The position numbers and the translations under genes were made by a program. From Prevotella sp. (GTDB taxonomy: Bacteria; Bacteroidota; Bacteroidia; Bacteroidales; Bacteroidaceae), in the NCBI GenBank assembly GCA_017619275.1, contig JAFZSR010000118.1, forward strand, positions 1-53,091: a stretch of DNA of 53,091 bases. Reading direction: 5' to 3'. The notes below the pieces were generated by a model. The model was given only the letters and a program-made list of their open reading frames with translations, made no database searches and had not been told where the DNA came from. Positions 7,312-46,051 of the stretch are shown here, piece by piece. The stretch's first letter is position 1. Every line of letters begins with the position of its first letter.

Positions 7312-7405
7312 TTGTTTAAACTGCGTCACGAATTAAATAAACCGTGACGCGGTTTATATAGACTACGACGTAGTTTATAAAAACTGCGACGTGGGCTGAA
7401 GAATA
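7312..7405 (+). repeat. Palindromic ~21-bp-period repeat (R1), copy 2
   Basis: The four units begin near 7318, 7339, 7361 and 7381. The first two pair as a 13-bp stem (AAACTGCGTCACG with CGTGACGCGGTTT, 7318-7330 and 7343-7355) with one T-G position. The third is itself nearly palindromic (ACTACGACGTAGT). The copy ends at CTGAAGAAT and lacks the extra GCTCCAGAC-type flank of copies 1 and 3. Confidence 0.85.
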
Positions 7406-7632: not shown

Positions 7633-7817
7633 AAGTTAGGTTGCAAAATTGCAAATTGCATGCACTCTCATGCAGGTGCAGGGAGGGTAAAATATATGGA
7701 ATATTAATGTAATATATTGTATATTAGTTATTTATATAAATTATTATACATAATTTAACACTTTCTTTTCCTTCACCAAAAAAAATAAATGCAATTTGCA
7801 ATTTTGCAACCTAACTT
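7633..7817. repeat. 185-bp element with perfect 29-bp terminal inverted repeats
   Basis: The left end 7633-7661 (starting AAGTTAGGTTGCAAAATTG) is the exact reverse complement of 7789-7817. The 127-bp interior is very AT-rich (many TATAT/AATAT runs) after a short GC-rich start, and encodes nothing. The size, exact inverted ends and lack of coding suggest a MITE-like or structured-RNA element. No target-site duplication was evident. Confidence 0.7.
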
Positions 7818-9596: not shown

Positions 9597-9712
9597 CAAC
9601 GGATTGCACGGATTTTACGGATTGGCTGCGCATAGCCCTCATCCGTTTAATCCGTTTTAATCTGTTGCCGATAGATATGGTGTTCATCCGTTTAATCCGT
9701 ATTAATCCGTTG
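9597..9712. repeat. 9-bp-period array with inverted arms, core ACGGAT/ATCCGT
   Basis: Three exact 9-nt units ACGGATnnn occupy 9599-9625. An inverted arm of three units with core ATCCG follows at 9641-9667 and can pair symmetrically with the first arm around position 9631-9632. A second copy of the right arm lies at 9685-9712. It sits between two genes of the minus-strand operon. The spurious frame it creates is not a gene. Confidence 0.75.
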
Positions 9713-30285: not shown

Positions 30286-30336
30286 TACGGACTCATTGGA
30301 CTATAAGGACCGTCCTTCCAGTCCGCAAAGTCCGTA
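30286..30336. repeat. 9-bp-period symmetric hairpin, core GGACT/AGTCC
   Basis: The left arm has TACGGACT, GGACT and AGGAC at a 9-nt phase. The right arm has GTCCT, AGTCC and AGTCCGTA as their exact reverse complements. The structure is symmetric about position 30311, with 3-4-nt unpaired spacers between paired cores. It is located 190 bp downstream of the vWA stop. Confidence 0.75.
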
Positions 30337-30416
30337 GAAAAACACGGGCGGATTCCTGCGTTATTGGGCGCGGGCGCCACCCCTTTTTTCCTATTCAACG
30401 GCACAGCAAAAAAAAC

Positions 30417-40136: not shown

Positions 40137-40263
40137 TTGTTTAAACTGCGATGTGATCTATATAAACCGTGACGTGGTTTTTATAAACTACGTCGTAATC
40201 TATAAAAACCACGACGTAGTCTGAAGAATAACTGCATGTCTGGAGCATAAGTTCTGGCGCAGA
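40137..40263 (+). repeat. Palindromic ~21-bp-period repeat (R1), copy 3
   Basis: This copy has the same orientation as copy 2 and the reverse of copy 1. It starts TTTGTTTAAACTGCG and ends in the CTGGAGCATAAGTTCTGGCG flank shared with copy 1. The first stem is degraded (CGATGTGATC against CCGTGACGTGG) while the third unit is kept (ACTACGTCGTAAT). Confidence 0.82.
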
Positions 40264-40306: not shown

Positions 40307-40408
40307 ATGGGGTTAATGGGGTTAATGGGGCTAATGGGCTTAATGGGGTGAGGTTTTTTCTGTGAAAATGCGCAGCTGCCCATGATGCCCATTGAGCCCA
40401 TTAAACCC
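40307..40408. repeat. 9-bp-period array with inverted arms, core ATGGG/CCCAT
   Basis: Five 9-nt units starting ATGGG lie at 40307, 40316, 40325, 40334 and 40343. Three inverted units starting CCCAT follow at 40379, 40388 and 40397. The arms are symmetric about 40363, so the cores pair while the 4-nt spacers do not. It lies 55 bp before the promoter of the four-helix-bundle gene. Confidence 0.78.
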
Positions 40409-44245: not shown

Positions 44246-46051
44246 ATGAATATAGAAACATTGATCAGCCAGGCTGCTGGCGAGGCCGTGAAGACACTCT
44301 ACGGCATGGAAGCCAATGAAAAGATGTTGCAGCTGCAGAAGACACGCAGCGAGTTTGAAGGAAACCTCACACTGGTGGTGTTCCCCTTTGTGAAGGCTGC
44401 CCGAAAGAGTCCGGAGCAGACGGCCAACGAGATAGGACAGTATCTGGTGGAGCACTGCCCGGCCGTGGAGAAATTCAACGTAGTGAAGGGATTCCTCAAC
44501 CTCAGCGTGGGGCAGGGGGCATGGCTGCAGTTGCTGGAAGCCATCGACCAGGACGAGCACTTCGGGTGCAAGCCTGTGCAAGAGGGCTCGCCTCTCGTGA
44601 TGATAGAATATTCATCGCCCAACACCAATAAACCCCTGCATCTGGGCCATGTGCGCAACAATCTGCTGGGTTGGAGCTTGGCGCAGATAATGGAGGCCAA
44701 CGGCAACCACGTGGTGAAGACCAATATCGTGAACGACCGTGGCATTCACATCTGTAAGTCGATGTTGGCTTGGCAGAAGTGGGGCAATGGCGAAACGCCT
44801 GAATCGTCGGGCAAGAAGGGCGACCATCTTATCGGCGACTACTACGTGCTTTTCGACAAGCACTATCGTGAGGAGATTAAAGAACTCGTGTCGCAAGGCA
44901 TGGACGAGGAGAAAGCCAAGCAGGAGGCGCCACTCATCAAAGAGGCGCACGAGATGCTGGTGAAGTGGGAGCAGGGCGATGCCGAGGTGCGCGCCCTGTG
45001 GGAGAAGATGAACAGCTGGGTGTATGCTGGCTTCGACGAGACCTATCAGAAGATGGGCGTGAAGTTCGACAAGATCTATTACGAAAGCCAGACCTATCTG
45101 CGCGGAAAAGCAAAGGTGGAAGAGGGACTGTCCAAGGGCCTCTTCTTCCGCAAAGACGACGGCAGCGTGTGGGCCGACCTCACCGATGCCGGTCTCGACC
45201 AGAAGCTGTTGCTGCGTAGCGACGGCACCAGCGTTTATATGACCCAAGACATCGGCACCGCCGAAATGCGCTTCCACGACTATCCCATCGACAAGATGAT
45301 TTATGTCGTTGGCAACGAGCAGAACTACCACTTCCAGGTGCTCTCGCTGTTGCTCGATAGGCTGGGCTTCAGCTGGGGTAAGGACTTGGTGCACTTCAGC
45401 TACGGCATGGTGGAGCTGCCCAATGGCAAGATGAAGAGCCGCGAAGGAACGGTGGTGGATGCCGACGACCTGATGCAGCTCATGGTGGACGATGCCTACC
45501 AGACGTCGATGGAGCTGGGCAAGTTTGCCGACATGACCGAGGAAGAGCGCCGCGAAATTGCACGCATCGTGGGCATGGGCGCCCTGAAGTACTTCATCCT
45601 GAAGGTCGACGCCCGCAAGAACATGCTCTTCAATCCCGAGGAATCAATCGACTTCAACGGCAACACAGGGCCTTTCATCCAGTACACCCACGCCCGCATT
45701 CGCTCTATTTTGAGGAAAGCTGCTAGCAACTCTAGCCTGTCTAGTACTTCTAGTATATCTAGTCTGTCTAGCCCATCTAGTTTATCTAGCAAGGAAGTGG
45801 AGCTCATCCAGAAGATGAATGAGTTCACGGCCGTTGTGGAGCAGGCCGGCAACGACTATTCGCCCAGCGGCATTGCCAACTACTGCTACGAACTCACCAA
45901 GCTCTTCAATCAGTTCTATCACGACTACAGCATCCTCAACGAGCCCGACGAGCAAAAGCGCTTCGTACGCCTGATGATTGCTCGCAACGTGGCCAAGATT
46001 CTGAAGAGTGGCATGGCCCTGCTCGGCATTGAGGTGCCTGAGAGAATGTAA
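44246..46051 (+). CDS. argS: Arginyl-tRNA synthetase
   Basis: The protein has 601 residues. It charges tRNA-Arg with arginine in the cytoplasm. Class I signatures are present: the N-terminal additional domain, SSPNTNKPLHLGHVRNN with the HIGH-like motif HLGH near residue 133, VNDRGIHICKSM, and KMKSREGTVVDADDL in the KMSKS position, then the anticodon-binding helical domain (HARIRSILRKAA, NEFTAVVEQAG, FNQFYHDYSIL). The C-terminus LLGIEVPERM is standard. At residues 493-516, between helices of the anticodon-binding domain, lies a Ser-Ser-x repeat encoded by an array of 9-bp TCTAG units, so an in-frame repeat has expanded in an essential gene. The stop overlaps the RNase H start by one base. Confidence 0.96.
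   Translation: MNIETLISQAAGEAVKTLYGMEANEKMLQLQKTRSEFEGNLTLVVFPFVKAARKSPEQTANEIGQYLVEHCPAVEKFNVVKGFLNLSVGQGAWLQLLEAIDQDEHFGCKPVQEGSPLVMIEYSSPNTNKPLHLGHVRNNLLGWSLAQIMEANGNHVVKTNIVNDRGIHICKSMLAWQKWGNGETPESSGKKGDHLIGDYYVLFDKHYREEIKELVSQGMDEEKAKQEAPLIKEAHEMLVKWEQGDAEVRALWEKMNSWVYAGFDETYQKMGVKFDKIYYESQTYLRGKAKVEEGLSKGLFFRKDDGSVWADLTDAGLDQKLLLRSDGTSVYMTQDIGTAEMRFHDYPIDKMIYVVGNEQNYHFQVLSLLLDRLGFSWGKDLVHFSYGMVELPNGKMKSREGTVVDADDLMQLMVDDAYQTSMELGKFADMTEEERREIARIVGMGALKYFILKVDARKNMLFNPEESIDFNGNTGPFIQYTHARIRSILRKAASNSSLSSTSSISSLSSPSSLSSKEVELIQKMNEFTAVVEQAGNDYSPSGIANYCYELTKLFNQFYHDYSILNEPDEQKRFVRLMIARNVAKILKSGMALLGIEVPERM
45722..45793 (+). repeat. 9-bp tandem array (TCTAGnnnn) inside argS
   Basis: CTAG recurs eight times at exact 9-nt spacing, from 45723 to 45786. 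The first is in GCTAGCAAC and the remaining seven in TCTAGnnnn. Each unit is three codons, Ser-Ser-x, so the frame is preserved. Because CTAG is self-complementary the array can fold on itself like the intergenic 9-bp arrays. Confidence 0.9.

Follow-up and report, generated by a model that had tools for sequence, protein, structure and literature searches.

A GGACT hairpin of a Prevotella genome among several families of short-period DNA arrays, some of them in frame in conserved enzymes

Introduction

The heptamer tandem repeats of cyanobacteria are known as STRR. Heptamer arrays, short direct repeats with many occurrences per genome, are found in Beggiatoaceae (TAACTGA), cyanobacteria and some Bacteroidetes (PMC4679880). 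The Rickettsia palindromic elements (RPE) comprise several short palindromic families, which lie in frame in unrelated metabolic genes (PMC10969869). In Porphyromonas gingivalis, an oral member of the Bacteroidetes, the minisatellite MITE BrickBuilt consists of tandem units in a small inverted-repeat element (PMC4596501).

Here we examine a stretch of 53,091 nucleotides from Prevotella sp. (assembly GCA_017619275.1, contig JAFZSR010000118.1, positions 1 to 53,091 of the forward strand), hereafter the window, in which a hairpin with GGACT cores is accompanied by arrays with other cores. Set against these reports, the arrays resemble the heptamer repeats in that many arrays with a 7-nt period are found per genome (here 34 in 453 kb, versus 0 in one shuffle). 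They differ in that the hairpin of the window itself has a period of 9, and in that arrays with a 9-nt step and varying spacers, inverted arms, and positions in frame within conserved enzymes also occur. The resemblance to RPE lies in the in-frame insertion into unrelated conserved genes, which is seen here for CTAG arrays and CCCC hairpins. However, RPE measure about 150 bp, whereas the CTAG arrays measure roughly 20-85 nt and consist of tandem cores with free spacers, and here a single site is occupied by one family or another depending on the species. BrickBuilt differs by its 23-nt units without spacers and by being always intergenic. In the literature searched, we found no account of the present combination, in which the same loops of enzymes host several core families and CTAG cores stand at 9-nt steps with free spacers; this does not prove that none exists. 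In our best reading, the arrays would be several families of dispersed micro-arrays that resemble the Rickettsia palindromic elements and the heptamer repeats.

Results and Discussion

The hairpin at 30286 looks like a copy of a dispersed element

The hairpin and its flank have the following extents:
30286..30341, no strand assigned: GGACT-core 9-nt hairpin, present in the genome in six full copies, this one included
30342..30392, no strand assigned: 3' flank common to three of the five other full copies, unaligned in the other two

Positions 30286-30336 read TACGGACT-CATT-GGACT-ATAA-GGAC-C-GTCC-TTCC-AGTCC-GCAA-AGTCCGTA, with the centre at 30311. The original prediction, that the cores recur every 9 nt on both arms around this centre, is exact by coordinates: GGAC stands at 30289, 30298 and 30307, and GTCC at 30312, 30321 and 30330. 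Its description of the spacers as unpaired is correct except for the inner ones, in which two of the four bases (AA/TT) pair. Folded as RNA, the stretch 30286-30336 reaches -26.4 kcal/mol, with a z of -7.35 against 200 shuffles; the hairpin is genuine and exceeds chance. A known structured RNA was rejected as a candidate, since Rfam models gave 0 matches in the window at the gathering threshold.

In the genome of the window (about 85% complete), a DNA search recovered five further full copies of the hairpin, a single partial copy and some weak, short matches. All five full copies align from query base 12, which corresponds to 30286; three of them continue to 30392, while two end at 30341-30342, just past the hairpin foot. 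Since all copies start at the same base and two of them stop at the foot, it is apparently the hairpin that forms the dispersed unit. The shared 3' flank follows it in four copies, the window copy included. Judged by sequence, the hairpin at 30286, which is intergenic in the window, looks like one copy of a dispersed, short palindromic element that has six full copies in this genome. The original view that such arrays are hard to explain by ordinary copying is not supported for a hairpin that is one of six dispersed full copies. In viral contigs, the hairpin had 0 matches. By eye, the hairpin and the upstream gene of the window are both missing from the three nearest genomes that contain the neighbouring gene. 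Terminal inverted repeats and a target-site duplication would mark a MITE; inverted arms are present, and a clean empty site was not found in these three genomes.

Dispersed palindromes and inverted doublets are also described for REP/REPIN elements with RAYT transposases. Movement of REP-type elements by a RAYT/Y1 transposase would fit the dispersed palindromes, the inverted pairs and the presence of several families per genome, and a Y1 subclass of their own, characterised by atypical structures, is described for the Bacteroidetes (PMC6006769). We nevertheless consider this explanation very unlikely. The 5' GTAG/GTGG foot is absent from the GGACT hairpin, whose 5' foot is TTAC in the window copy and CTAC in the rest, with GTAG on the 3' side. 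Moreover, a search of this genome, at its completeness of about 85%, found no repeat-flanked cognate Y1/RAYT enzyme; there is a single, weak Y1-like gene (24.4 bits), which is flanked by a different repeat, and RAYT was for this reason rejected as the obvious mover in this genome. The Y1 transposase-like gene lies on L131 (G000:C62), and the repeat that flanks it is GCAGTGAGTATAAGGATTTGTAATCC, in both orientations.

Companion arrays within the window

Three companion loci with other cores had been predicted (9597-9712, 40307-40408 and 45722-45793), and all are present as described. Their extents, and that of the gene which hosts the last of them, are:
9599..9711, no strand assigned: ACGGAT/ATCCGT arms around a GGCTGCGC centre, and a second ATCCGT array; dispersed family with shared flanks
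40307..40402, no strand assigned: ATGGG array (five copies) and inverted CCCAT array; relatives share the array, not visibly the flanks
44246..46051, plus strand: argS, host gene of the CTAG array
45723..45789, plus strand: CTAG array, in frame in argS (loop after RSILRK), its eight cores spaced exactly 9 nt apart

With at most one mismatch, the ACGGAT family has 24 forward and 25 reverse matches in this genome (49 in total), against 0 for the reversed control. Many of its copies have flanks in common, and for this family too the doubt about ordinary copying is unsupported. Nine other places match the ATGGG array (E below 0.003), and by eye they have the array in common with it but not the flanks; on these matches, the array at 40307 is assigned to a third dispersed family.

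Elsewhere in the window, 21-bp tandem units of the TTTATAAAAACTACGACGTA type, seemingly interrelated, were observed at 1343-1404, 7352-7392 and 40142-40217, and TTGCAAA-type 8-nt arrays form an inverted pair with an AT-rich loop between them at 7641-7809.

Arrays with periods of 7 and 9 exceed shuffled sequence

Six period-9 arrays (5-mer core, at least three copies) were counted in the window, against 0.0 in ten shuffles. Four of them lie at the predicted loci (9599, 40307, 40378 and 45731) and one is poly-A; the core of the 30286 hairpin is too short to enter this count. A larger sample of the same genome, 453,091 bases made up of the window and 20 stretches, is non-random, as the 20 stretches come from 12 contigs surfaced by the ACGGAT pattern search. 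It contains 34 period-7 and 28 period-9 arrays, and the loci of 80 relatives contain 126 and 49, respectively, whereas single shuffles for these four counts gave 0, 0, 2 and 0. Merged inverted arm pairs with a period of 8-10 number 22 in our sample versus 2.6 in shuffles, though several of them are probably chance two-copy matches inside genes. Arrays with a fixed period are thus far above shuffled sequence, both in our sample and in the relatives, as are the inverted arm pairs in our sample. One strict 9-nt rule, as originally proposed, was rejected on the same counts, period-7 arrays being as frequent as period-9 arrays in our sample and in the relatives. The cores are many and different, as predicted, but they are not specific to their loci: each recurs at several to many places, and they represent genome-wide families.

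The proposed symmetry of the arms was compared with a chance level given by the cores of other arrays. In this genome, an arm with a matching core accompanies 12 of the 34 period-7 arrays (1.6 expected), 7 of the 28 period-9 arrays (1.55 expected) and two of the five arrays with periods of 8, 10 or 11 (0.75 expected). The corresponding numbers in the relatives are 19 of 126 for period 7 (1.4 expected) and 11 of 39 for periods 8, 10 and 11 (1.15 expected), and none of their 49 period-9 arrays has a matched arm. Arm symmetry therefore stands above chance in this genome and, at periods other than 9, in the relatives, but it is not a general rule.

The CTAG core is constant while its spacers vary

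CTAG is avoided about 7-fold in our sample (117 occurrences versus 814.5 expected), and yet, where two CTAG are neighbours at a distance of up to 40 nt, 37 of 38 distances are exactly 9. Among the distance peaks of palindromic tetramers, that of CTAG (37 versus 1.5) is followed by much weaker ones, for example ACGT at 7 (22 versus a mean of 5.3). Relatives with CTAG in argS have steps of 9 (24) or 10 (7), and in other near relatives the steps are foremost 10 (9) or 11 (4).

The spacers were compared in 17 arrays of at least four cores, drawn from sampled loci of this genome rather than from the whole of it. Two consecutive spacers were shared in 0 of 5270 comparisons between arrays, and copying of whole arrays thus looks unlikely for this family. 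The idea of something beyond ordinary copying of one repeat holds up in this respect for CTAG, and not for GGACT and ACGGAT. Spacer identity was 0.50 within arrays and 0.34 between them (identical spacers 11/215 and 64/7942, respectively), and this greater likeness within arrays is what would be expected if units duplicate and their spacers then drift. Target duplications of 9 bp were rejected as the source of the arrays, since they would give identical adjacent spacers, and the identical pairs within arrays are just these 11.

These data bear on two other explanations. The first is dedicated local writing, in which a core-specific factor would set short cores at 9-nt steps with free spacers, and arrays would arise independently. 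The lack of shared consecutive spacer pairs, the spacer identities, the avoidance of CTAG combined with its clustering at 9 nt, and the ATGGG arrays without visibly shared flanks all speak in its favour. We regard it as unlikely all the same, because the GGACT and ACGGAT families are plain copies with common spacers or flanks, and because the likeness of spacers inside arrays fits simple unit duplication too. To our knowledge, there is no enzyme for the local writing of arrays. The second explanation, ordinary microsatellite slippage without dispersal or selection, would account for the tandem units and for the two-unit duplications present in some arrays, such as the CTAG array of L227. It appears extremely improbable, given that the same cores occur at many places and that they are fixed where the spacers vary.

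Among 19 CTAG arrays viewed in this genome, 14 lie in ORFs of at least 450 nt (four in one frame and ten in another), some of which may not be genes, and five lie outside. We take ORFs with such arrays to be lpd, ftcD, several glycoside hydrolases and an iron-sulfur protein. The absence of the third frame is uninformative, because TAG in that frame would stop the ORF. The presence of arrays in two reading frames and outside ORFs indicates that the core is not set by one peptide. In the loops, Ser-type dipeptides are encoded with CTAG in 67 of 76 cases, versus 50 of 1008 in the background, a contrast whose p-value is overstated because the genomes were picked for showing CTAG in their loops. 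From the sequences, the CTAG core seems to be kept as DNA and not as peptide.

Different families occupy one loop of argS

The argS sequences of 80 relatives were compared in the loop between RSILRK and KE(I/V)E, which was labelled by eye. Depending on the species, this loop contains CTAG at 9 nt, one of the heptamers CTCTNCA, AATGNAC, CAATTCT, GGAATTA and TGCTCCC, ACTCC arrays, CCCCTCC hairpins, or native sequence. A 9-nt reading of the CTCTTCA and AATGGAC arrays was rejected, as the CTCTNCA and AATGNAC matches step by 7, and the CAATTCT array reads as 7 by eye. As for the arms, L054 and L072 have both arms with one core, L056 and L058 have a single arm, and the arms of L057 have different cores.

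The loop states were placed on a quick tree of argS proteins built without the loop, for which 51 of 81 sequences were used and 30 distant ones left out; it is weakly supported, with 10 of its 48 inner branches starred and 21 open. The nine states (eight array families and native) require 24 changes, the least possible being 8, while shuffled states required 27.0 on average and 24 or fewer in 8 of 200 shuffles. For array versus native, 10 changes are required, compared to a shuffled mean of 16.9, and values as low occurred in 0 of 500 shuffles. This indicates that the presence of an array follows kinship, and that the kind of array follows kinship weakly. The starred branches alone force three changes of CTAG, four of CCCCTCC, and one each of CTCTNCA and AATGNAC. 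Two further loops look array-like, yet entered these counts as native or not at all (L108, in the tree, and L129, left out of it).

Arrays and hairpins in other host genes

CTAG arrays and CCCC hairpins sit in frame in argS and in two further genes, which we take to be alaS and thrC from their sequences. The 28 alaS loops that were read include nine with an array or hairpin (five CTAG, one of which, L070, has two clear cores only, two CCCC hairpins and two other arrays) and 19 that are native or unclear. For thrC, eight of 30 loops have an array or hairpin (six CTAG and two hairpins), and 22 are native or unclear. A single ORF at L047:8254-11076, by its sequence presumably a glycoside hydrolase, combines a CTAG array with a CCCC-hairpin peptide that resembles the argS peptide of L065.

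For two families, the array in argS correlates with the family's abundance in the genome

In 35 genomes, CTAG x4 was counted per strand, with overlapping windows and the argS array itself included: the 10 genomes with CTAG in argS have 29-114 matches, and the 25 others have 0-27 (Mann-Whitney p 2e-6). After removal of five matches per carrier on account of argS, the ranges overlap slightly and p is 3e-6; these statistics ignore kinship. A similar correlation was obtained for CTCTNCA: of 18 genomes, the four that carry it in argS have the highest counts (p 3e-4, or 0.004 after removal of four matches each, kinship again ignored); the reversed control for this pattern is non-empty, with up to 44 matches per genome, as it picks up another heptamer family. 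For two families, the array found in argS is thus correlated with the abundance of its family in the same genome. The link is weak for AATGNAC, since the three matches of L092 belong to a single array, which is apparently that of argS, and 12 matches occur in a genome that lacks AATGNAC in argS.

CTAG x4 is present in 25 of the 35 near relatives. In a thin sample of 198 genomes across the order, in which the family was represented by two further members and the genus by no further one, it was found in eight genomes, that of the window included; the other seven have 1-18 matches each, and in three of them these are perfect or nearly perfect repeats. The comparison of 25/35 with 8/198 indicates that the CTAG family is concentrated in this lineage. 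Viral contigs contain at least 120 stretches with CTAG x4, a raw count given without a chance expectation.

A probable model of dispersal and local growth

The explanation that we consider probable is that there are several dispersed families of micro-arrays, with units of 7-11 nt and often in inverted pairs, which land in frame, replace one another and grow locally, and of which the CTAG family has a recognised core. Each genome would hold its own set of families, and copies would land between genes and, frame permitting, in tolerant loops of conserved enzymes. One array family could replace another at a given site, and arrays would grow or shrink locally by duplication of units. The CTAG core would be preserved as DNA, with drifting spacers, most probably through a putative protein that recognises 9-nt CTAG steps. 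Dispersal and local growth account for most of the data. The means of spread may be mobility, and growth may proceed by slippage or duplication. The constancy of the CTAG core would ask for a recognising factor. The arrays may resemble TrpR-like or MetJ-like operators.

A bolder form of this model is possible, and we offer it tentatively. In rumen Prevotella, a putative factor would recognise the avoided CTAG at exact 9-nt steps, keep the cores, leave the spacers free, build or maintain arrays independently, and thereby feed in-frame peptides into essential enzymes; core and step would differ between species like dialects. A rare tetramer that is kept at an exact 9-nt step between free spacers suggests a putative DNA-binding or DNA-processing factor, which might be traced by contrasting genomes with many CTAG arrays and genomes with few. 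If the model of dispersed families is right, tiny repeat families rewrite housekeeping enzymes in frame in a major rumen genus, with different families in different species at the same loop. This would constitute a natural experiment on the origin of new protein segments.

The GGCTGCGC motif and the CCCC element

A larger palindromic element with CCCCTCC hairpins at both ends was observed at L044:17630-17737, with similar ones in L033, L037, L042, L048 and L050. It has GTGGGGTCT...AGACCCCAC inside and the ends GCGCAGCC/GGCTGCGC, and it is repeated in many contigs. GGCTGCGC or its core is found at these ends and also at the centre of arms of different families, namely at 9624 in the window and in the ACGGAT loops of L012, L016 and L026, and ATGCGCAGC lies in the loop of 40307-40402 in the window. 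Of the 51 occurrences of GGCTGCGC in our sample of this genome, about 16 adjoin an array or hairpin, a raw count by eye.
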